From contig JAVSMP010000001.1 in NCBI GenBank assembly GCA_032027145.1, positions 2,051,116 to 2,115,115 of the forward strand: DNA of 64,000 bases, written 5' to 3'. A program made the translations under genes and the position numbers. The stretch comes from Ignavibacterium sp. (GTDB taxonomy: Bacteria; Bacteroidota; Ignavibacteria; Ignavibacteriales; Ignavibacteriaceae). Position 1 is the stretch's first letter, and the number at the start of each line of letters is the position of its first letter. The notes beneath the pieces are model-generated. The model ran no database searches. It was not told the DNA's origin and saw only the letters and a program-made list of their open reading frames with translations. Below are positions 27,825-41,417 of this stretch, piece after piece.

Positions 27825-28054
27825 ACATTGAACACTGATTAGCTAATTGAAAATTAAAAATAAGAATAGATAAGAGTTAGAAATAAAGTAGAAATCATTA
27901 AGTGTAATTTAAAGATCAAAAGTACAACAAAACCGAAAAAAGAACTATGTTAAATTAAAAGAATTATTTTTTTCAAATTATTAAAATATTATCTATTAAT
28001 ACTTTAATAAAAATTATTTAGTTAATTTTCGTAAACAATAAAATGGAGTTAAAA

Positions 28055-29245
28055 ATGAAAAACCTTTTTTTTAAAAGCATTTTTTCTTTATTTGCCCTTA
28101 CTTTGTTTATTAGTATTCCTGGTTATGCACAACTTGGACAATGGAACGGATCTCAGACAATCTACAATTTCATTTATCGAATGGGACCAGTCGGGATTAA
28201 CAATGTTAAACCAATTGAGATGCTTGAAGTCGATGGTAGAATTCGGCTTTCTGATTCACACGAGGACCCCAAGCCTGGGACTATTCGTTTTTACTCAGCT
28301 AATTCTGATTTTGAAGGATACAATGGCAGTAGCTGGAAGTCTATGACTTCTAAATGGACTTTATCGGGTAACAATATTATTAATAATAATAGTGGATACG
28401 TTCAATTAGGATTGACAAGTAAGCTTGGAATTGGAAAGACACCAAATTCTAAATTGGAGATTTATACTGAGAATGCTGCTAATAGTTGGACAGAAGGGTT
28501 GCAGCTTACTTCAAAATACTATAGTGAATCTACCCCCAGTAATTATGAGACTTATATGATTCAGCGTATGGACGGATTTTATATTAAATCTCACGGGGGT
28601 TATAATTTTATGAGTGGTGATGGTAATACAAATTTTGTGCGTATCAGCAATACAGGAAATGTTGGAGTTGGTATTGCAAATCCTACTCAGAAACTTCACT
28701 TGAACGGAAAGATTTTTATTGAATATACAGGGATTGCAGATGATATTTTTAAGATTAGTGAATACAATGAATTAGGAATAAAAGAAAATGGCCCATCAAA
28801 ACAAGGATATTTAGCCCTATATAACAAAGATCTTGAAATTGTGCCTCCTGTTTTATCAAAAAACTTAGTGTTAAATGCAGGCGGGACATCTTATATACTA
28901 GGTGGGTTGGCACTGGGGAAAACAACGATCAGTTCAGGATATAAGTTTGATGTAAACGGTAAGATCAGAGCAAATGAAATAGTTGTAAACTCAACAGGTG
29001 CTGATTTTGTTTTTGAAGCTGATTACAATTTAAAATCTTTGGAAGAGGTTGAATATTACATAAAAGAAAATAAACATCTTCCCGGTATTCCATCAGCAAA
29101 AGAAGTTGAAGAGAACGGAGTTAGTCTTGGAGAAATGCAGACAAAACTGCTGCAGAAGATTGAGGAGCTAACGTTGTATGTGATAGAATTGAAAAAGGAG
29201 AATGACATTCTTAATACAAAAGTCAATGGATTAGATAAAAGGTAA
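28055..29245 (+). CDS. Secreted tail-fibre-like protein with C-terminal coiled coil
   Basis: A 396-residue exported protein starting at ATG 28055 (ribosome site TGGAG six bases upstream; an in-frame ATG at 28043 overlaps that site). Signal peptide 1-22. The middle repeats a tail-fibre-like theme (VGIGNVKPIEMLEVDGRIR-like segments and GNVGVGIANPTQKLHLNGK). The C-terminal 90 residues contain KHLPGIPSAKEVEENGVSLGEMQTK-type sequence and a coiled coil, a module common in Bacteroidota next to RHS genes and related to intramolecular-chaperone tails. It ends 50 bp before the large rhs gene and is probably co-transcribed. Precise function is unknown; surface display or fibre trimerisation is likely. 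Confidence 0.78.
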   Translation: MKNLFFKSIFSLFALTLFISIPGYAQLGQWNGSQTIYNFIYRMGPVGINNVKPIEMLEVDGRIRLSDSHEDPKPGTIRFYSANSDFEGYNGSSWKSMTSKWTLSGNNIINNNSGYVQLGLTSKLGIGKTPNSKLEIYTENAANSWTEGLQLTSKYYSESTPSNYETYMIQRMDGFYIKSHGGYNFMSGDGNTNFVRISNTGNVGVGIANPTQKLHLNGKIFIEYTGIADDIFKISEYNELGIKENGPSKQGYLALYNKDLEIVPPVLSKNLVLNAGGTSYILGGLALGKTTISSGYKFDVNGKIRANEIVVNSTGADFVFEADYNLKSLEEVEYYIKENKHLPGIPSAKEVEENGVSLGEMQTKLLQKIEELTLYVIELKKENDILNTKVNGLDKR

Positions 29246-29295: not shown

Positions 29296-32200
29296 ATGAT
29301 GAAAAAATATATTTCTTTTTTAATACTAAGTGTTTTATCAATTGTTTTTTATCAAAATATATTTGCAGAAGGTCAATCATCAACAGCAAAACCAAAAGCT
29401 GCAAATACGCCTTCAATAGGCGGCGGTGATGGAGATTTTAGTAATGAAAGTCTTTTTACTGGTGATGTTGCTTTTTCTGTACCTATTACAAATATAGGTG
29501 GGATTAGTGTCGCATTAAATTATACTAGTAATGTGCATAAACTGGTAAGAGCTGATAATAAAGATGCGCAAGCAGGTTGGGTTGGGCTTGGCTGGTCTTT
29601 AAATCTTGGGAGTATTGTTGCGGATATAAATGGGACAAGAGATGTTTCAGACGATAAATATTTTTTTGTAAGTGCTTCTGGATCTTCAGAAATGATTCTT
29701 ATTTCCGGAAATGATTTTATGTTAAAAGAATATCAGTATTGGAAAATTACTAGAAGCGTGGATGGTAATGGTAATTTGATTGGATGGACTATAATTCTAG
29801 ATGATGGTACTAAAATGAGATTTGGAAATTATAATAAAACAACAAACAACTTTCTCTTTGATACTACACTAACAAAGGCAACGCGTTTTATGCTTGGCTG
29901 GGATGGAGTTGTTTGCAATCCATTAAATAACAAATACAACTCTGCAAGCTTTATTGCTTATCAGTGGGACTTGTCGGATTTAGAAGATATTGCCGGCAAT
30001 CATACTACAATTTCATACCAGGGTGTTGCTGAGGTATTAAGCGCAAATTCACTCTCAACAACTCTAAAGTATACCCAGGAATCGCATCCTTTAAAGATTA
30101 CTGATTGGACTAACAGAAGTGTTGAATTTGTTCTAGGTAATCTTACGACTGCAGAGTACGTTACACCTCCTGATAAAATTATCCAACGTCTGTTTGAACG
30201 AAAGTATTTGAATAAGATCCTGATAAAAGACGCTACTAATTCGATAATACAGCAGACTGTTTTTGATTATTCAGTACTGGATATTTTTAATCTGTCAGCT
30301 TCAAAAAGATATCTAACATCAATTACTGTTCAGGATGCAAATATTAATTCACTTACTCCAACAAACTTTAGTTATTATACAACAAGCGGAAGCTTAGGCG
30401 AAAATCCCGGTGCATTAAAATCAATAACCTATCCTGATGGCGGCAAGGTTGAATATACTTATGCTTATCATACACTTAGTAACGTTGAACTTAATTTTAG
30501 TCAGATTTACACAACAAATGAACCCATTGTTGACCTATCTTTATTACGAACTCTAATGTCTGGATCGGATTTCTATGTAATAAAAAGAGCTGACAACAAA
30601 CTTGAAGTCTATAGATGGGGAACAATAGGATGGTTTGTTGATAGTAATTTTCCAATTTCTACTTCAGTTTCAAATTTTTGGGTACGAAATGATTACATTG
30701 TTGCTTATATGGGAAGTAATACATTAAAAATTGCAAAAAGAAAAAATGATGGATGGACTGTCTCAACTATAACATTAAGTAACAGTAGAGATCCTGGTAG
30801 TATGAAAGTAATCGCTGTATCAAGCAATTTTTTCTTGGTTGCACATAATCTGGAAAAGTATAATTATAACACACAAGAGCATAAATGTAGAAGGAGAGAA
30901 AATCTTTCTGTTATACGATTAGATGATGCTACATGGAGCAGTTATTCCTTGGGTGATTTTGATCTTGGAAGACATGATATTGATTGGGACATTCATATTG
31001 AAGCTGCATCTGGTATTGATTTTTTTGCAATTAGATATTCCGATAATCCTGACAGCGATCAAAGATCTAGATGCAGGTTATATGTAAAAGATGGATTGAG
31101 CTGGTCAGAAAAATTCAGTTTTTATCCGGATGACATTACACCGTCAGATTTCCGACTTTATGCAGGACCTAATTATTTTATTGCTCATGCATATATAGGT
31201 CACTTAATTAATTGGGTATTTTATCCCCCCAATATTAAAGTTTTTTCTTGGCCGTTTACTTCTGCTAATGATTTTAAAAAGCGTGATATTTTTACCGACG
31301 ATATTTATACTCATTCAAATTTTTTTGTTACAAAGAAGGATGATGAAAGTTCTTCCTCTATTTTTATTCACAGTTTTAATAATGATGGTTCTAATTATCC
31401 TTATACAGTTACTAATATTGAAAATGTATTAACAGGTTCATTTTATAATAGTAGATTAGCTCTTGGGAAAGATTATGTTTGTGTTGGCTGGATAGAGGGA
31501 TCGAGTCCTTATAGCGGAAAATTGGGAGTCGTAAAAAATGTTGATGGTTTGTGGTCAACTGGATCATTAATTGAAACTATAAGTGATATGCAATATGATA
31601 GTTACGTTACTCCTGTAAACAATGGAATGACACTTTTTGCAGAGTGGTATTCGCCTTTTGATTATCATAGTGTAAGAACATATAAAGCGCAAAATAACAA
31701 CTGGATATTCATTAGCGAACTTGATAATGTTTCACTTGGAAGTGGAAATGCTTCTTTTACTCAACCTGGTTTTCAACTTTTAGGAGATATTATTCAGCCA
31801 GGAACTGCAGACGATATTGTCTCTCATAGTTTTATGGAAGGAAACACCCAGGGTGGAGACGCTTTGTTTTTAGGCAATCCCGCTGATTATCCTGTTTCAA
31901 CTAAAACTATAACTGATGGAATGGGTAACAGCTACCAGACAATTTATACATTTGAAAATGGTGTCTATGATCACGAAATTAATTTTGCAAAATATAACAA
32001 AGTTACTGTAGAACTCCCACAGCAAGATAGCGGAAAAACTATTACTTATTTTTATAACCATTTAGGTCCTGGTCAGGCAGAAGAGTTTGTCTATTCTCTT
32101 AACTATAAAGAACTGGATGGGCTGCCATATAAAATAAAGGTTTATAACTCAGCAATTAATGAAATTGCAACAACAACGAATTACTGGGCTGCTTTTGATA

Positions 32201-35200
32201 TTGATGCAGCTAATGGAGTTTATCATAAAAGACTAACTAAATCTGTAAATATCAACGACGGAATAACAAGTACTGTTGAGTACGAATATAACAACACAAA
32301 TGGACAGATAAAGAAAATTACCGAACCTGCTAAAGTCGCTTCTGATCTTTACGGTTTACGGGACAGAGTAACTGAAATTACATATGCTTACGAGCAGTAT
32401 ACTGCTATGCAAAATTTGAATATGGTATCACAGATATATGAAAAGAAAACAATATCAAAAGGAAGCAGCAGTAATACTGTAGCAGTTCTTGCTGATGGAC
32501 CCGAAATAACCGATTACAACCAATTTAGTGTACTTTATAATCAAACCGTTACCTATGAAGCTATAGTTTCAGGTGGTTATTTTTGTGTTGGCACAACTCA
32601 AGGCGGAGATGATATCATCTCTAAAAAATATTCTGACGCAAGCGGGTCGTTTCACGCAAATACCGGAATAACATATTATCTAACCGCACATACATACCCT
32701 TGTTCTCCTCCGCCGCATCCTTGTGAAGCTTGGGTTATTGGTCGGGTCACATATCATCAATCGAACGATCCAGATGAGGTGATTATTTCTCAGGAGCGTA
32801 CAGAATTCGACCCAAATAACAATTACGTATCATTTAGGAATTCAGTTTACAATGGCACAAATTGGATTGTAACAAATGCTATTACTGGACGTAATGATAA
32901 TGGAAATGTAACCGAAAGCTATAATGTGGACAATGTTTATTCATCCACAAAATATGGATATGATAATGTTCTTCCAATTGCACAGGTATCAAACTCAAAA
33001 GACGGTGAATCCGGTTATACGGGTCTGGAAAGCGGGTGGCAGGATTGGGAAACCGGCGGCAGCACAATTGTAAGCAATTTAAAACATACAGGGATTTTTA
33101 GTGCTTATTCGCAAAACAATTATGGACCTACCAAGAATTTTTATTGTGCCAATGGCGTAGATAAAATTAAATCTTACATACTTGAAGCTTGGGTAAGAAG
33201 AACAAGCGGAACCGGTAAAATTACGATTGAACTTCGCGATGCTAATAATAATGTATTATCAATTGTATCACAAGATATTACAGGCGGTACGGACTGGCAA
33301 CTTGTTTCACTTCCTATTACTCCACAGCAAATGACGAATCTTCCTTCCAATGGTTATTTGCGAGTATGGTGCGGATTTCCTAACTCAACTTCTAATTTCG
33401 GCTACGTTGACGATGTAAGATTTTATCCCGCTGATGCAATGATGACAACTTATACTTACGATCCTCTTACTCTGCAAGTTACAAGCGGAACAGATGAAAA
33501 CAACGTAACTACTTTTTATGAATATGACAGCTTTGGTCGTTTGACTCAGACAAAAAATGATGACAGTGATGTATTATCACAGACAACATATTATATATCA
33601 AGAGAACATAACGCCGGTAATTTCAATCCAAACGATCCTAATTATATCAGAACTTCGGCTTATCCAGATGGAATTGGTTCTACACCTATTGTTACAACTA
33701 ACTTTACTGATGGTCTCGGACGAACTTTACAGCAACATTCCCAGGACGGAAGTAATGATATTATCTCAGCAGTAAGCTACGACAATGCAGGACGAATAAA
33801 TAAAACTTATAATCCTTATTCTCTCAGCAATCCAAGTCATAACTACGATCCAAATTATTCATCGGGTTCATCGGGTTATATTGAAACGCAATATTATTCC
33901 GATCCGCTTGGAAGAGTACAATGGAGAATTCCACAGGGTTCAAACCCATCAACACCGAATAAAAATATCGAGAGTGTTTACGGCAATGCAACGCTTAGCG
34001 GAGTTTCCTGCTATACCAACGATATCAAACAGAAGCCAGCAACTAACAGTGTTAACTGGATTACTTCGAGGAGTTACAGGGATAGGTTAGGCAACGTTGT
34101 TAAATCTTCTGTGCTTGATGGATCCTCCGAAATACAAACCTCCACAACACTTTACAATATGCTTGGGCTTCCTGTACAGGTTACTGACCCGAAAGGAATG
34201 CTGCAGAATTTTACTTATGATTTTCTCGGGCGTTTGAAAGTAAAAACAACTCCTGATGCAGGAACTTCTAAGTACATTTACGACATAGCCGGACGACTTA
34301 GATTTATGCTCGATGTTGACGGCGATGCTGCAAATCCCGATAACATCTTGTATTGGAAGTATGATACATTTGGGCGCGTAACTGAAAAAGGTTATATCGT
34401 GATGAACTGGAATGAAACATTATTGCAGGATGAAGCAAATACAGATCCTGATTACCCAACAACTCCCGATACCTGGCGTAAAAAATTTACTTACGATACA
34501 GATGCAACGTCGCAATATCTAAAAGGCAGATTATATAAAGTAGAAACCAACAACGATAATAATACAGATGTGGAAACTCAGGAAACTTTTGCTTATAATA
34601 AATACGGATTTATTACTGCAAAGAATTTAACCGTTATGGAAGTAAGTACGCAGATGCAATCTACGCTTTATGATTATGATAATCTTGGAAGAGTTACAAA
34701 GATAACCTATCCTTCCCGTCCAGGTAATTTAACTTTGCAGAATGAAACCATCTCAGGCACAACCCCGACGCAGTATGAAGCAAATAATAATATAGATGCA
34801 GGACCTGATGTAACAATAAACTCCGGAGCCAGCGCAACATTTAAAGCCGGAACTAGCATACATCTTAAGCCCGGGTTTACGGCAAGTAACGGAAGCAACT
34901 TTAGGGCTTATACAGGTACATTCACAGACGGAGGAACTCCTACAGAAGTTGTTTACTCTTACAACCAGCGCGGACAAATTTCCGGCGTAGGTACAACCAC
35001 TAACCCGACTTTTTATGCTTCATACACTTATAAGCCATCGGGACAAATAGAAACTGAAACTCTTAACAACGGGCAGAAAGTAGTGCAGGCAACTTACGAC
35101 GTTAAAAACCGTCCCACACAGATTTCATCTCCTCTGTTTACCGAATCGCTTACTTACGAAACAGGCGGTTACGGCGGAGTGGGATATTATCACGGCAATA

Positions 35201-36966
35201 TTGCGTCTGCAAGTTTTTCTTATTACTCCGGCGGACCTGCTGCTTACCAAACTCTGTACCAGTACGATAACCTTGGACGGTTGAAGATAGCAGATAACAA
35301 TATTACTGCACTAAACCCTTATGATATTTCCAACATCAGTTACGATCTCAATGGAAATATTATAAGCATAAACAGAGGCGGTACGAATTACACTTACAAT
35401 TATTATACTGGTACAAACAAACTCAAGAATACCGGGGGAAGTAATAACGATTACGAGTATGATTTAAATGGTAATATAAAAAAGTCATTACCGAAAGGCT
35501 TAGATCCTTTAGTTTATGACCCATTTACACAGATGACAAAAAGCATAACTGTTACCAGAACTCCTAACAAGATGATGTCATTTCAGTATTCTGCCGACAA
35601 TGAACGTATACTGAAAAATGAAAAACAAGGAACGACGAATAATTTGAATCTTTATATCCGTGGAGCTAGCGAGTATCCTGTAATAGAAAAAATAAACACA
35701 AACAATACTCTTACTGACAAAGTTTACATCTACGGACCAACTGGTTTGATTGCATTTAAAGATGCAACGGCAACTTACTTTGTAATTAAAGACCATCTCG
35801 GCTCCACAAGAGTGCTTTTTAGAAGTACTGGAACTCAATACGCAACTTACGATTACTCACCATTTGGCAGCTTAATGAGAGCAACGATAAACGGCGATGT
35901 AGTTTATAAATTTACCGGACAGGAGTACGACAGCGAGTTTGGCTTATACAACTTTAGAGCAAGATTATATGATGATGAGCTTGGAATTTTTTATGCGGTT
36001 GACCCAAGCGGACAGAATTTTTCTCCATTCAGTTATGCAGGCAATAACCCTGTTATCAGGGTAGATAGAGATGGCCGAATTTGGTGGATACCGCTTTTAA
36101 TTGGTTTCTCAACTGGGTATTTGTCACATGCTTTAACTTATGATGACTGGGGTTGGGGAGCAATTGGTCAAGGACTTATTTCAGGGTCAATGTCGTTTGT
36201 TGGTTGGGGCGTTACTTCAGCACTTTCGCCATACTTTAGTTCAACATTGGGACTATCGCAAGGACTCTCGACAACTCTCGCCGGTGGTTTATCCGGCGGA
36301 ATAACAAGTTCACTCTTCACTCCTTGGGTAGGTGGAAACTTTGGGACTAATTTCCTATCTGGATTTGTAGGTGGTGCTTTAGGAGGAGCTGCTCAGTTGG
36401 GGGCATCTTCATTGTCAATTTCATCGGACATTCAATTTGGATTGAGGGTCGTGGGCGGTGGTATTTCCGGTGGGTTAACATCGTCTGTTTTTGGTGGTAC
36501 ATTTATGCAGGGTTTTGCAGGTGGGGCTATGGGTGCTGCAATGTCTGGCGTTGCAGCTGAAATTATTGATGAAGTCTACTCGGGTAAAATGACTATTGAA
36601 GAAGCCAAGAAAATTCTGGGTATTACAGATGAGGAATGGGCTGCCCTTGAATATGCTAATGGTGAATATCCAGAAGGTACTTATCCAGAGTTAACTAGAG
36701 AAATTGGCACTGAGGAATTATGGGCAAAACTACAACAATTACAGCAAAATGAAATGATAGGTCCACGAACAACATCTCAATCTTTGGGCAATTTTCAACT
36801 CGGGGTTGAAACATTGCGTTTTGGAGGTGATTTACATGTGCGATATCAAAGTGGAACAATAAGTTTTCATCGTGATCTTATTAGTATTGTTAGAAATCCA
36901 ATTCTTCATCTGTGGGATGATTATAAGCATCCTTATTCTGTACCCGCAATAATCAGGGGAAGATAA
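29296..36966 (+). CDS. RHS-repeat protein with polymorphic C-terminal toxin-like domain
   Basis: A 2556-residue exported RHS protein. Signal peptide 1-24, then an SpvB-like start (GGDGDFSNESLFTGDVAFSV). Residues about 400-850 resemble propeller blades, a carbohydrate-binding-like module lies near 1235-1380, and RHS/YD repeats of the YDxxGR type fill about 1385-2100. The core ends with DHLGSTRVLFRS, YDYSPFGSL, FTGQEYDSE and NPVIRVDRDGR (about 2250-2262), where RHS proteins switch to a variable C-terminal domain. That domain (about 294 residues) has a long glycine-rich hydrophobic part (2270-2420), then a charged tail with FHRDLISIVRNPILHLWDD. A beta-propeller gene follows after 26 bp. No known nuclease, deaminase or ADP-ribosyltransferase motif was seen in the C-terminal domain. 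Confidence 0.92.
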   Translation: MMKKYISFLILSVLSIVFYQNIFAEGQSSTAKPKAANTPSIGGGDGDFSNESLFTGDVAFSVPITNIGGISVALNYTSNVHKLVRADNKDAQAGWVGLGWSLNLGSIVADINGTRDVSDDKYFFVSASGSSEMILISGNDFMLKEYQYWKITRSVDGNGNLIGWTIILDDGTKMRFGNYNKTTNNFLFDTTLTKATRFMLGWDGVVCNPLNNKYNSASFIAYQWDLSDLEDIAGNHTTISYQGVAEVLSANSLSTTLKYTQESHPLKITDWTNRSVEFVLGNLTTAEYVTPPDKIIQRLFERKYLNKILIKDATNSIIQQTVFDYSVLDIFNLSASKRYLTSITVQDANINSLTPTNFSYYTTSGSLGENPGALKSITYPDGGKVEYTYAYHTLSNVELNFSQIYTTNEPIVDLSLLRTLMSGSDFYVIKRADNKLEVYRWGTIGWFVDSNFPISTSVSNFWVRNDYIVAYMGSNTLKIAKRKNDGWTVSTITLSNSRDPGSMKVIAVSSNFFLVAHNLEKYNYNTQEHKCRRRENLSVIRLDDATWSSYSLGDFDLGRHDIDWDIHIEAASGIDFFAIRYSDNPDSDQRSRCRLYVKDGLSWSEKFSFYPDDITPSDFRLYAGPNYFIAHAYIGHLINWVFYPPNIKVFSWPFTSANDFKKRDIFTDDIYTHSNFFVTKKDDESSSSIFIHSFNNDGSNYPYTVTNIENVLTGSFYNSRLALGKDYVCVGWIEGSSPYSGKLGVVKNVDGLWSTGSLIETISDMQYDSYVTPVNNGMTLFAEWYSPFDYHSVRTYKAQNNNWIFISELDNVSLGSGNASFTQPGFQLLGDIIQPGTADDIVSHSFMEGNTQGGDALFLGNPADYPVSTKTITDGMGNSYQTIYTFENGVYDHEINFAKYNKVTVELPQQDSGKTITYFYNHLGPGQAEEFVYSLNYKELDGLPYKIKVYNSAINEIATTTNYWAAFDIDAANGVYHKRLTKSVNINDGITSTVEYEYNNTNGQIKKITEPAKVASDLYGLRDRVTEITYAYEQYTAMQNLNMVSQIYEKKTISKGSSSNTVAVLADGPEITDYNQFSVLYNQTVTYEAIVSGGYFCVGTTQGGDDIISKKYSDASGSFHANTGITYYLTAHTYPCSPPPHPCEAWVIGRVTYHQSNDPDEVIISQERTEFDPNNNYVSFRNSVYNGTNWIVTNAITGRNDNGNVTESYNVDNVYSSTKYGYDNVLPIAQVSNSKDGESGYTGLESGWQDWETGGSTIVSNLKHTGIFSAYSQNNYGPTKNFYCANGVDKIKSYILEAWVRRTSGTGKITIELRDANNNVLSIVSQDITGGTDWQLVSLPITPQQMTNLPSNGYLRVWCGFPNSTSNFGYVDDVRFYPADAMMTTYTYDPLTLQVTSGTDENNVTTFYEYDSFGRLTQTKNDDSDVLSQTTYYISREHNAGNFNPNDPNYIRTSAYPDGIGSTPIVTTNFTDGLGRTLQQHSQDGSNDIISAVSYDNAGRINKTYNPYSLSNPSHNYDPNYSSGSSGYIETQYYSDPLGRVQWRIPQGSNPSTPNKNIESVYGNATLSGVSCYTNDIKQKPATNSVNWITSRSYRDRLGNVVKSSVLDGSSEIQTSTTLYNMLGLPVQVTDPKGMLQNFTYDFLGRLKVKTTPDAGTSKYIYDIAGRLRFMLDVDGDAANPDNILYWKYDTFGRVTEKGYIVMNWNETLLQDEANTDPDYPTTPDTWRKKFTYDTDATSQYLKGRLYKVETNNDNNTDVETQETFAYNKYGFITAKNLTVMEVSTQMQSTLYDYDNLGRVTKITYPSRPGNLTLQNETISGTTPTQYEANNNIDAGPDVTINSGASATFKAGTSIHLKPGFTASNGSNFRAYTGTFTDGGTPTEVVYSYNQRGQISGVGTTTNPTFYASYTYKPSGQIETETLNNGQKVVQATYDVKNRPTQISSPLFTESLTYETGGYGGVGYYHGNIASASFSYYSGGPAAYQTLYQYDNLGRLKIADNNITALNPYDISNISYDLNGNIISINRGGTNYTYNYYTGTNKLKNTGGSNNDYEYDLNGNIKKSLPKGLDPLVYDPFTQMTKSITVTRTPNKMMSFQYSADNERILKNEKQGTTNNLNLYIRGASEYPVIEKINTNNTLTDKVYIYGPTGLIAFKDATATYFVIKDHLGSTRVLFRSTGTQYATYDYSPFGSLMRATINGDVVYKFTGQEYDSEFGLYNFRARLYDDELGIFYAVDPSGQNFSPFSYAGNNPVIRVDRDGRIWWIPLLIGFSTGYLSHALTYDDWGWGAIGQGLISGSMSFVGWGVTSALSPYFSSTLGLSQGLSTTLAGGLSGGITSSLFTPWVGGNFGTNFLSGFVGGALGGAAQLGASSLSISSDIQFGLRVVGGGISGGLTSSVFGGTFMQGFAGGAMGAAMSGVAAEIIDEVYSGKMTIEEAKKILGITDEEWAALEYANGEYPEGTYPELTREIGTEELWAKLQQLQQNEMIGPRTTSQSLGNFQLGVETLRFGGDLHVRYQSGTISFHRDLISIVRNPILHLWDDYKHPYSVPAIIRGR
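35518..35556 (+). repeat. 39-bp exact repeat, RHS core copy 1
   Basis: Bases from GACCCATTTACACAGATGAC onward are identical to 38102-38140. It encodes DPFTQMTKSITVT in both copies and lies near the start of the region shared by the full rhs gene and the orphan cassette. It is a likely crossover point for C-terminal domain exchange (inference). Confidence 0.9.
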
Positions 36967-36992
36967 AAAATGCATAATAGTAAAGGACTGTA

Positions 36993-38039
36993 ATGTCTAA
37001 CTCTATAAAATTGATTCTATTTTTTTTCTTATTCCAAATAGTAGGTTCGTCACAAGATGTTTGGAATACTAAAAACAATAATATGAATAACATAAGGTCT
37101 CTTGGCTTCACACCTGAATTTGTGGTTGGGGTTTGTGACTGCGGAGGAATAGGAACAGTCGTAAAGACATGGTCATTATCAGATGGGGAAGCAGATTCGC
37201 TTTTTCGAGCTCGGATACAAGAAATATGCATAAGCAATAACGGAAACTACCTAGCAATAAGATCATTCAAAGATAGTATAATGCTACAGACTTTTTTCAT
37301 AGAAGGCAAAAAATGGTTATGGCAATACACAGGATCACATTATAATTCTATCGCATTCTCTGAGGATGATGAATATTTAATTGCGATAAATGAAAATGCT
37401 ATTGAAGAATTTGAAGTGCAGTCAGGAGATAAAAATATATTGAAAACTCCTCTTGAGGATAAACTCTCGGATTATGCTGAAAGTAAAAAAAGAGTTCTGA
37501 GACAAAAACTCAGTCCTGATGGTAAATATATGATAATATGGAATGACAAGATAAATTATGAGTGGGGTATTTCTTTTCTATTTTTATTTAGTGCTTCCCC
37601 TAATCCAAACATTGCTGTATGGGATATTTTAGAAAATAAACTTATATCAGAGATTCAGAAGCCATTATCAAAGATTGTTTCGGTTGCTTTTTCTCCCGAT
37701 GGAAAAAAAGTGTTCCTTGGTTGTGAGGATAAAAAAATTAGAGTATGGTCTCTACTTGCAAATAAAATCATCAAAGATTTTGAAGGGGATCCATCTTACA
37801 TAGATGTTTCAAACAGAAATAACCTGCTTGGAATTGGTGGAGATCATCTACGCATTTTAAATTCTTTGACGTTTACACTAATAAAGGATTTTGGAAAGGT
37901 TGGTGATAAAGTTGGAAGACTTAGCGAATGGAGTTTTAGCAGCGATGGTAAGTATTTCGCTCTTGAGGTAGAAGGCATTCTTTATCTTCATGAAACTAAT
38001 ACCTGGGAAGTACTATGGAGTATCCCTACTTGTCCCTGA
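36993..38039 (+). CDS. Exported beta-propeller (WD40-like) protein, candidate immunity partner 1
   Basis: A 348-residue protein with a good ribosome site (AAAGGA) and signal peptide MSNSIKLILFFFLFQIVGSSQ. The mature part consists of WD40-like blades, for example VAFSPDGKKVFLGCEDKKI followed by RVWSL, and INV-type strands ending in TWEVLWS. It starts 26 bp after the rhs gene, the position normally held by the immunity gene of an RHS toxin. A second, clearly paralogous protein at 39556 follows the orphan rhs cassette in the same way. The export signal suggests that it acts in the periplasm or at the inner membrane. Immunity or chaperone function is inferred from position only; WD40-like propellers are general binding scaffolds. 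Confidence 0.78.
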   Translation: MSNSIKLILFFFLFQIVGSSQDVWNTKNNNMNNIRSLGFTPEFVVGVCDCGGIGTVVKTWSLSDGEADSLFRARIQEICISNNGNYLAIRSFKDSIMLQTFFIEGKKWLWQYTGSHYNSIAFSEDDEYLIAINENAIEEFEVQSGDKNILKTPLEDKLSDYAESKKRVLRQKLSPDGKYMIIWNDKINYEWGISFLFLFSASPNPNIAVWDILENKLISEIQKPLSKIVSVAFSPDGKKVFLGCEDKKIRVWSLLANKIIKDFEGDPSYIDVSNRNNLLGIGGDHLRILNSLTFTLIKDFGKVGDKVGRLSEWSFSSDGKYFALEVEGILYLHETNTWEVLWSIPTCP

Positions 38040-39526
38040 TTGCAGGTCCAAACAGAAATATTACTTCTTCATTTCATAAAGAATTAAACCCGATAGTTTA
38101 CGACCCATTTACACAGATGACAAAAAGCATAACTGTTACCGGTTCACCGACAAAAGCAATGACATTTAACTACTCTGCAGATAATGAAAGAGTATTAAAA
38201 ACGGAAAGTTATGGCACTACGAAAAATTCCAATCTTTATATCAGAGGTAATAACAATTATCCAATTACGGAGAAGATTAATTTAAACTCAGTATTGAATG
38301 ATAAGATTTATATCTATGGACCGACAGGATTAATTGCATTCAAGGATGCAACGGCAACTTACTTTGTAATAAAAGACCATCTTGGTAATACAAGATTACT
38401 TTTTAGAAGTACCGGAACACAATACACAACTTATGATTACTCTCCGTTTGGTAGTTTAATGCGTTCATCAATAAGCGGAGATACAGATTATAGGTTTACT
38501 GGACAGGAATTTGACAGCGGAACTGCTCTGTATAACTTTAGAGCGAGACTTTATGATGATGAGCTTGGAATTTTTTACGCAGTTGATCCGGGTGGACAAA
38601 ACTTTTCGCCATTTTCTTATGCTGGTAATAACCCGGTAATATATGTAGATAAAGATGGGAGATTATTTTGGTTGATTCCCGCCATAGTTGGATTTGTTAC
38701 AGGATATGTAAGTCACGGTATAATCCAGCACGATTGGGGTTGGGGAGCGTTAGGTAGTGGTTTGCTTGGAGCTGTCTCATCTTTGGTTGGTTACCAAACT
38801 GCTGCTTGGGCTTCATCGCTTGGTCATAATATTGGTTTATCTCAAGGACTTAGTACTGTAATCTCCAGCGGTATAGGAGGAGGTACATCTGGGGCGTTTA
38901 GCAATTTATTACAAGGACAAAATGTTGGTCGTGGATTTTTAGCTGGTTCACTTGCAGGAACTCTGGGAGGAGCGTTTAGTCTTGGTGCTGGTAACCTTTC
39001 AACAACAGGACAATTTATAAGTAGAACAGTTTCTGGGGGATTTGTAGGAGGATTAGTAAGTGATGTAATGGGAGGTAGTTTTATTGGTGGTTTCGGAACT
39101 GGAGCACTTTCTTCAAGTGTTTCGTTCTGGGCAACAGAACTTACAAATTATGTTTACAAAGATGGCGGAAGCTTAGCAGAAAAAACTTATGGTTTAACTG
39201 AAAGTGAAAAAGAATTACTTAAGTATGGTTTGGAAGAATATAAGAAGGGTAGTGTAACTCCCGAACTTTTGCAGAAATTGCAGGAACTTCATGCTAAGCT
39301 TTATCCTCATGATAATTCAGCTACCGGTATTTTATCAAGATTAAGGGATTGGAGTGTAAATGATTTACGCTTCGATGAAATTCATATAATGACTGAAGCA
39401 GGAAACGTTAATTTTCACTACGACCATTTTAGTTTAGTAACAAATCCTTTTATGCACATTTTAGTTGATGAAGTAATAGTGAACCGAATAATTGGTGGAC
39501 AAGGTATATATACAGTCCCAAGATAA
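38015..39526 (+). CDS. Orphan RHS C-terminal cassette
   Basis: The frame encodes the last part of an RHS core plus a different C-terminal domain. Homology to the full RHS protein begins around codon 38050 (NRNITSS..., then LNPIVYDPFTQMTKS) and runs through YGPTGLIAFKDATATYF, DHLGNTRLLFRS and NPVIYVDKDGR. After that (from about 38665) the 288-residue C-terminal domain is diverged but still related: a glycine-rich hydrophobic part, then FHYDHFSLVTNPFMHILVDE. There is no signal peptide and no convincing ribosome site. ATG 38015 lies inside the preceding propeller gene and is probably not a real start. It looks like a silent donor cassette that could be recombined onto the full gene. Confidence 0.85.
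   Translation: MEYPYLSLIAGPNRNITSSFHKELNPIVYDPFTQMTKSITVTGSPTKAMTFNYSADNERVLKTESYGTTKNSNLYIRGNNNYPITEKINLNSVLNDKIYIYGPTGLIAFKDATATYFVIKDHLGNTRLLFRSTGTQYTTYDYSPFGSLMRSSISGDTDYRFTGQEFDSGTALYNFRARLYDDELGIFYAVDPGGQNFSPFSYAGNNPVIYVDKDGRLFWLIPAIVGFVTGYVSHGIIQHDWGWGALGSGLLGAVSSLVGYQTAAWASSLGHNIGLSQGLSTVISSGIGGGTSGAFSNLLQGQNVGRGFLAGSLAGTLGGAFSLGAGNLSTTGQFISRTVSGGFVGGLVSDVMGGSFIGGFGTGALSSSVSFWATELTNYVYKDGGSLAEKTYGLTESEKELLKYGLEEYKKGSVTPELLQKLQELHAKLYPHDNSATGILSRLRDWSVNDLRFDEIHIMTEAGNVNFHYDHFSLVTNPFMHILVDEVIVNRIIGGQGIYTVPR
38102..38140 (+). repeat. 39-bp exact repeat, RHS core copy 2
   Basis: Identical to 35518-35556; the surrounding core sequence is homologous but diverged. A crossover here would move the orphan C-terminal domain and its propeller gene onto the full-length rhs gene and delete about 2.6 kb. 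Confidence 0.9.
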
Positions 39527-39555: not shown

Positions 39556-40722
39556 ATGCTTTATGCTATATTTTTTATTTTGTTAATTATGGTTGGGGAT
39601 GTGTACGATGGATCTTTCGTAGGTCATTACCCAAGTGTAGGTAAAAATAAATTAACATCTAATGATACATCAATATACAACTCAGATTCATTAAGAGCAG
39701 ATATGAATTCTAATCATCTGAGTTTTTTACATATTCTGAATAAACGTTCAGAGATAATTGCAGAGCCCGTTTCAGATGATATCAAAGGAGGAACAATTTA
39801 TAGGTGGAACCTTTTTGACGGTAAACGTTCTATTTTGGCATATTTGGGAGATCGTGTTTGGATAGCCTATATGACGGTCAGCCATAATGAAGACTTCATA
39901 GTAGTCGCAACCTTAGATAATGATCCTACACGTTTAAAATATTTCTCAATTAAAGAAAAAAAGTGGTTATGGGAAATTCAAGATTTAGATCATTACTGGT
40001 GGTTAGGTTTTTCTGATAATGATAAGGAAATAATAGCTTTTGGGAATAATGCTGTGTATAGAGTTAACGCATATAACGGTGTTATATTAAGTAAAACTAA
40101 AGCTATACATAATGAATATTCTCTTAGTGTGCACAAAAGCACAGGTACTTTTATAAGCCCAACTGGTAAGTATTTGGTTATATGGCAAGTGCAAGAGACA
40201 TGGGCACTACTTGATTTATTCAGGAGATCTGCAAATAAAAATATTTCAGTTTGGGATATAGAAGAAGAAAAAATTGTAGCATCAATGTCATTGCCTGAAA
40301 AAGGAGTAAGAACTGCAACTTTTACTTCGGATGAGAAAAATGTTTTTCTTGGCTGTGGTGATGAGACTATAAAATTATGGTCATTAGAGAAAAACAAAAT
40401 AGTTAACGAAATTCCAGGGTTAGCTACTTATTTAGTGACAAGTAATAAACAAAATTTTTTAGCATCTGGAATTATGGAAGAAGATCGTCTTTCCAAAGTA
40501 AAAATATGGAAGTACCCTGAAATGACACTAATACATACTATAGAACCATATTCGAAAAACTATATCAATCGAGGGAGAATGCCAGTTAATTTTGATAAAA
40601 CTGGTAAATATTTCGGAGTTGAAAGAGATGGAAAACTCTATTTGTATGATACTTCAAATTGGGAAGTGTTATGGTCTTTTAATACAGATGTAAGTGACTC
40701 AAAACAAAACTCTGAGAAGTAA
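39556..40722 (+). CDS. Exported beta-propeller (WD40-like) protein, candidate immunity partner 2
   Basis: A 388-residue paralogue of the protein at 36993. The ribosome site GGAGAA lies five to six bases before ATG 39556; the N-terminus MLYAIFFILLIMVGDVYDG is a signal peptide or anchor. Shared blades include DEKNVFLGCGDETIKLWSLE and KNKIVNEI and the end NWEVLWSF, matching FLGCEDKKIRVWSL and TWEVLWS in the first copy. It starts 29 bp after the orphan rhs cassette. The matching order toxin-domain, propeller, toxin-domain, propeller supports a cognate relationship (inference). Its stop codon abuts the decayed third rhs fragment. Confidence 0.78.
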   Translation: MLYAIFFILLIMVGDVYDGSFVGHYPSVGKNKLTSNDTSIYNSDSLRADMNSNHLSFLHILNKRSEIIAEPVSDDIKGGTIYRWNLFDGKRSILAYLGDRVWIAYMTVSHNEDFIVVATLDNDPTRLKYFSIKEKKWLWEIQDLDHYWWLGFSDNDKEIIAFGNNAVYRVNAYNGVILSKTKAIHNEYSLSVHKSTGTFISPTGKYLVIWQVQETWALLDLFRRSANKNISVWDIEEEKIVASMSLPEKGVRTATFTSDEKNVFLGCGDETIKLWSLEKNKIVNEIPGLATYLVTSNKQNFLASGIMEEDRLSKVKIWKYPEMTLIHTIEPYSKNYINRGRMPVNFDKTGKYFGVERDGKLYLYDTSNWEVLWSFNTDVSDSKQNSEK

Positions 40723-41417
40723 CAAACAAGCTGCAGAACACAGACGGAAGCGGAAATGATTAGATATATGATGCTAATGGAAATATAACTACTTCTATAC
40801 CGAAAGGATTAAACCCGATAGTTTATGACCCGGTTAATAACAAAGCGAAAGTGTTTAACATTTTTGGAAACGGTTTGATTAGCAAAGTTGTAACAGGTGC
40901 TTATGATAATTTGTATTTAACAAATACAATACTTGAAGGCACGTACGAAGCACAGAACACTATCACTGCTGAAACAAATGTAATTGTAAACGGAACGGCA
41001 ACACTTAAAGCCGGAAACACAATAAGTCTTAAACCTGGTTTTCACGCAGCTTATGGAAATAATTTTACAGCAATGATTGAAGCAGTACCAAACACAGCAA
41101 AACGCTTTTACTATTTGAAAGACCACCTTGGCAGTATTAGAGTTGTAGTAAATGAATTGGGCGAGATAGTAAGCAGCGACGACTACGATCCTTGGGGAAT
41201 GATATTAAACGGAAGAAGTACTAACAGTGCTTACACAAATTCAAAGTATAAGTTTACCGCTAAAGAAAGAGACACAGAGACCGGCTACGACTACTTCGGT
41301 GCAAGGTATTACGACAGCAGGATTGGAAGATGGCTGCAGGTAGATCCGCTTGCAGAAAAATATTTTGGATGGAGTCCGTATAATTATACTTTAAATAATC
41401 CATTAAAAAAGATTTAA
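40723..41417 (+). pseudogene. Decayed third RHS fragment
   Basis: Directly after the second propeller gene the sequence translates as TNKLQNTDGSGND, a TAG stop (40761-40763), then IYDANGNITTSIPKGLNPIVYDP, collinear with the full RHS protein. It then enters another segment (TYEAQNTITAETNVIVNG with KPGFHAAYGNNF, a 3-coathanger-stack-like repeat also present in the full RHS protein near residues 1820-1860). The RHS core that follows is of a different subtype (DHLGSIRVVVNELGE, FTAKERDTETGYDYFGARYYD, WLQVDPLAEKYFGW). It stops at NNPLKKI, exactly where a toxin domain should begin. No C-terminal domain remains. Confidence 0.88.

Follow-up and report, generated by a model that had tools for sequence, protein, structure and literature searches.

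In the window, by which we mean the entire 64,000-nucleotide stretch of Ignavibacterium sp. DNA under analysis, part of a complete 3.67 Mb genome with IGN3 (CP053447.1) as a near relative, we found a gene for a full-length RHS protein followed by smaller genes that appear to be cassettes of the same kind (Table 1). The variable C-terminal domain of the large protein (CTD1) is preceded by RHS/YD repeats and an Rhs-associated core, as indicated by TIGR03696 and RHS_repeat matches, and a propeller gene follows after a gap of 26 bp. Next comes an orphan cassette, in which a core fragment is fused to a second C-terminal domain (CTD2), with its own propeller gene after 29 bp. The third core fragment, at 40851-41417, is perhaps the remnant of a lost cassette. 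Immediately upstream of the RHS gene, at 28043-29245, lies the gene of a secreted 400-aa protein that has a coiled-coil-like stretch at its end and no match in a Pfam search. We take its C-terminal LPGIPSAKEVEENG-type segment to resemble tail-fibre/endosialidase chaperone ends.

Table 1. Features of the RHS locus, numbered from the first nucleotide of the window
Feature	Position	Strand	Basis
N-terminal Sec-type signal peptide of the full-length RHS protein (MMKKYISFLILSVLSIVFYQNIFA)	29296..29367	+	sequence
Full-length RHS/YD-repeat protein, 2556 aa (RHS_repeat, DUF6443, GCX_COOH, Rhs_assc_core)	29296..36966	+	profile matches
Putative aspartyl self-cleavage motif DPSG-x17-DRDG (D2236, D2257), predicted cut R2261/I2262	36001..36078	+	motif as in Tse5/Rhs (PMC10684867)
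CTD1 glycine-rich module, pre-toxin, putative membrane association	36079..36552	+	
CTD1 tail, putative payload, about 137 aa, outside known families	36553..36966	+	
FHRDLISIVRNPILHLWDD segment named in the earlier note, in the CTD1 tail	36865..36921	+	
WD40 beta-propeller protein with signal peptide, 348 aa, putative CTD1 immunity	36993..38039	+	
Orphan cassette, 503 aa, RHS core fragment without signal peptide fused to CTD2	38015..39526	+	
CTD2 glycine-rich module, behind DPGG-x17-DKDGR	38663..39133	+	
CTD2 tail, putative payload	39134..39526	+	
FHYDHFSLVTNPFMHILVD segment named in the earlier note, in the CTD2 tail	39413..39469	+	
WD40 beta-propeller with hydrophobic N-terminal export signal or anchor, 388 aa, putative CTD2 immunity	39556..40722	+	
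Third RHS core fragment, truncated, without CTD	40851..41417	+	

The full-length protein matched no PAAR domain and carries a Sec-type signal peptide instead, and profile searches found no T9SS sorting domain on it; T6SS VipA and T9SS SprA have genes at other places in the genome. The orphan lacks a signal peptide and is therefore probably a stored spare. Both CTDs begin behind a variant (DPSG-x17-DRDG and DPGG-x17-DKDG) of the aspartyl self-cleavage motif of Rhs toxins, DPxG-x18/19-DPxG (PMC10684867), in which both aspartates are kept and the second proline is replaced, and on the strength of this motif we predict self-cleavage at the CTD boundaries. Tse5 of P. aeruginosa shares with the window protein a YD-repeat shell, a motif of this type (DPxG-x(18-19)-DPxG in Tse5), and a hydrophobic CTD that is membrane-directed, putatively so here. 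It has, however, a T6SS/PAAR N terminus rather than a Sec signal peptide, and Tse5-CT consists of 149 aa without a separate tail; we have not seen a propeller immunity protein described for Tse5.

An earlier note on this DNA had described the two CTDs as alike, with a glycine-rich part and a tail whose conserved H, D, N-P, and H looked like an active or metal site. The segments quoted there, GF(S/V)TGY(L/V)SH, DWGWGA, GLSQGLST, FHRDLISIVRNPILHLWDD, and FHYDHFSLVTNPFMHILVDE, were all found, and the CTDs proved to be true homologs, with about 40% identity from end to end, far above shuffled sequences. In 500 shuffles each, the local scores were 348 for the glycine-rich half (shuffle mean of 71; z of 27), 122 for the tail (mean of 28; z of 19), and 81 for the final 55 to 59 residues (mean of 23; z of 11). 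Conservation is higher in the glycine-rich halves of about 155 aa (45% identity) than in the tails (34%).

Between CTD1 and CTD2, FHxD, NP, H, and D agree exactly and keep constant spacing, and the tail has a size that suits a small enzymatic payload, both of which speak for an enzyme with its catalytic or metal site formed by the HxD...NPxxH...D residues. We nevertheless consider such an enzyme unlikely, since conservation at these residues does not exceed that of the tail as a whole: in the alignment of the two divergent sequences, 3/7 H, 2/10 D, and 2/7 P columns are conserved, all near the tail average of 34% (Fisher p of 0.44 to 0.91). Nor does the motif stretch form a conservation peak, the best 36-column window having 14 identities against a mean shuffled maximum of 14.4 (P of 0.72). 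With only two divergent sequences, conserved H, D, and N are indistinguishable from shared ancestry, and IGN3 adds nothing on the motif because its CTD1 differs from that of the window by two residues. The active or metal site proposed for the tail thus lacks support and could not be confirmed from these sequences. The AlphaFold2 model of CTD1, built on a four-row alignment (mean pLDDT of 44), hints at strands near the motif, though with very low confidence; helices run through its glycine-rich half (pLDDT of about 45 to 58), and its last 100 residues score 23 to 36. The CTD2 tail modeled alone from three rows gave a pLDDT of 47, with the first 40 residues helical at 65 to 76. In both models the motif stands at a pLDDT of about 30 (range of about 23 to 34), too low to judge whether its residues cluster in space or to weigh for or against a site.

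No match to the tail was found in Pfam, NCBIfam, PHROGs, or the PDB, a further point against the enzyme, and known toxin models did not match the CTDs, in agreement with the earlier statement that no known toxin motif was recognized. Within all searches made, the tail is known only from this genome (two copies) and from IGN3 (one copy); there was none elsewhere in 80 genomes of the family, 164 of the order, 391 of the class, and 395 of the phylum and none in viral contigs. With whole CTDs as query, genome contigs yielded the tail in these two genomes only, and phages and plasmids yielded nothing. Several candidate relatives were rejected. Weak genome matches of the tail were unrelated frames when read by eye. 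Ntox23 has a similar HR..N.P ending by eye, but the tail had no Pfam match to it and an hhalign probability of 0.2%. A relation to the tails of the second cassette of IGN3 and G040 was unsupported, the aligned stretch having fallen outside the CTD. In genome G071, an antisense stretch beside the propeller gene resembles NPILHLWDDYKH; its score was 53 where shuffles reached at most 51, the CTD2 tail does not match it, and it overlaps the propeller stop codon. We attributed this likeness to chance.

The glycine-rich part had been suggested to insert into membranes. By composition it is plausibly membrane-associating: its first 150 residues contain 23 to 25% Gly and 5 charged residues, and each copy has 13 GxxxG motifs versus about 8.3 in shuffles (p of about 0.035). 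The insertion part of the claim holds less well, as the best 19-residue hydropathy is 1.3 to 1.5, below the usual transmembrane-helix threshold of 1.6, so that these are not classical transmembrane helices. Insertion might still be expected by likeness to GxxxG effectors, Tse5-CT, and a hydrophobic teneurin CTD. The Rhs CT of Tse5 is pore-forming (PMC10684867), and the hydrophobic bacterial teneurin CTD is toxic only when exported with a signal peptide (PMC13018210). In the effector Tde1, a GxxxG motif is required for delivery (PMC10240207); this glycine-zipper effector likewise has a GxxxG-rich segment before its toxin domain and a proposed action on the target membrane, but it is a DNase of the T6SS whose target is cytoplasmic, whereas the exported partner found here suggests a target in the envelope.

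The same module precedes different tails within the genus and family, in G040, the second cassette of IGN3, G056, and G035. The G056 tail has a C...HVG(I) pattern, papain/NlpC-like by eye, and no profile match. A profile of the module found three more copies in G215, a genome of another Bacteroidota family (E values of 3.6e-36, 9.1e-18, and 3.2e-16); these are independent, while the six module sequences used as profile builders match by construction. Two of the G215 copies precede Ntox23 (PF15528; E of about 5e-15), the shared module reading WFxxDDL...GY..H....DWGW, and the third precedes an NlpC-like tail. The two Ntox23 CTDs hardly differ in their first 80 residues and diverge thereafter, a pattern expected if one module is combined with varying payloads. 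In a set of 55 RHS CTDs from related genomes, the median length is 294 aa with the module and 187 aa in the 38 without it, which indicates an added domain. Since the module recurs before Ntox23, NlpC-like, and untyped tails, it is not specific to the toxin in the window.

This reuse bears on the possibility that the toxin is the glycine-rich half, acting as a pore former or membrane permeabilizer in the manner of Tse5-CT or the teneurin CTD of B. inaquosorum, and that the tail is only a segment for folding, anchoring, or immunity recognition. The glycine content, the scarcity of charges, the GxxxG enrichment, and the higher conservation of this half would all fit such a toxin, and membrane-permeabilizing hydrophobic Rhs/teneurin CTDs are known (PMC10684867, PMC13018210). 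We think it a rather less probable account, because the hydropathy stays under the transmembrane threshold and because the module stands before Ntox23 and NlpC-like tails with a different partner gene each time, which argues that it is not the specificity-bearing part.

Comparison with IGN3 shows that the CTDs move together with their partner genes. From 36082, the start of the CTD, to a point near 38120 shortly beyond the propeller gene, the window and IGN3 are 98 to 100% identical, whereas the RHS core ends that flank this block of CTD1 and propeller are 62 to 92% identical. In the second slot, the core fragment is common to both up to 38659, after which IGN3 has a different CTD and partner. 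IGN3 has no full-length RHS gene, including its start, at the position of that in the window. In a third strain this site, next to genes for an acyl-CoA ligase and a TonB receptor, is occupied by just one cassette, and a different one. CTD and partner thus swap as cassettes between strains, with an orphan cassette present, as in polymorphic toxins, of which exchange through RHS cores is a hallmark (PMC3482391, PMC10684867). As separate observations, IGN3 carries seven RHS cores in about 15 kb, and a Mutator-family transposase (PF00872; E of 9e-36; locus L011, 10862-12097) lies within its RHS cassette array.

The two partner proteins are paralogs of the WD40 beta-propeller type (36% identity over 300 residues), and a simple rule assigns each a hydrophobic export signal at its N terminus. 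They matched WD40/beta-propeller-type models only and none of the described Imm profiles. Immunity proteins of polymorphic toxins are mostly cytoplasmic, and secreted ones go with surface-acting toxins (PMC3482391). A propeller gene with an export signal stands directly behind each CTD, and this makes the envelope the likeliest place for the payload to act. The G035 CTD, too, is directly followed by a small signal-bearing ORF. The partner has an export signal in 9/9 scored module cassettes versus 28/41 cassettes without the module (Fisher p of 0.09), by a rule that 46% of the genes in its own background set pass. Export signals are therefore common on the RHS partners of this clade and do not prove a module-specific link; the glycine-rich module as a marker of exported partners was set aside as a trend only.

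Homologs of the propellers occur without an adjacent RHS gene in G417 (49% identity) and G071 (26% identity), and these could be orphan immunity genes or have a different function. They would be in line with a nontoxic role, in which the CTDs would be surface-display or structural RHS ends and the propellers ordinary secreted proteins. We regard this as quite improbable, given three features that polymorphic toxins typically show: the orphan layout of core, CTD, and partner, the precise cassette swapping between strains, and the joint duplication of a CTD with its partner (PMC3482391). The exported propeller of G417 (locus L026, 10998-12822), which is the homolog 49% identical to the CTD2 partner, has no RHS gene in the 20 kb examined and lies beside two small membrane proteins.

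Our preferred explanation, which we hold with belief and doubt in about equal measure, is that the locus carries polymorphic RHS toxin-immunity cassettes, each composed of a membrane-associating pre-toxin module, a private envelope-acting payload, and an exported propeller immunity protein. The two CTDs would be the variable ends of one polymorphic RHS toxin, CTD1 being in use on the Sec-exported 2556-residue shell and CTD2 stored alongside as an orphan cassette. Once cleavage has released the CTD, its helical and nearly charge-free module of about 155 residues would probably mediate contact with a target membrane or entry into it, and the private tail of about 135 residues would be the payload, most likely acting in the target envelope, either periplasm or membrane. 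The exported propeller would be an immunity protein that works outside the cytoplasm, probably protecting the producer. Bacterial teneurin-like proteins (BiTLP; PMC13018210) are organized similarly, with a large YD-shell, a cleaved hydrophobic CTD (cleavage being predicted in our case), and an immunity gene directly downstream, but their CTD sequences and immunity proteins differ from those found here.

If confirmed, these cassettes would enlarge the RHS repertoire of a little-studied branch of the phylum by an unassigned toxin-immunity pair, and the reusable glycine-rich module would become a marker, such that any sequence behind it in an RHS protein would be a toxin candidate, probably envelope-acting. 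More unusual is that a secreted WD40 propeller would serve as the immunity protein; we found no WD40 immunity protein described in a literature search with most subscription journals outside its reach. More tentatively, and as a possibility we would back only with reserve, this may be a genus-restricted family of envelope-acting toxins with a payload whose fold and chemistry differ from those of all described toxins, neutralized by a secreted WD40 propeller of an immunity class undescribed in the literature searched.

Other RHS CTDs were noted along the way. By the module cassettes of G215, a CTD at locus L038, 1593-2615, has a weak phospholipase A2-like match (PF08398; E of 0.1), and its partner gene encodes a multi-pass membrane protein. 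At locus L086, in G013, a CTD has a GDTPTGE stretch, L,D-transpeptidase-like in look, with an exported 154-aa protein encoded behind it.
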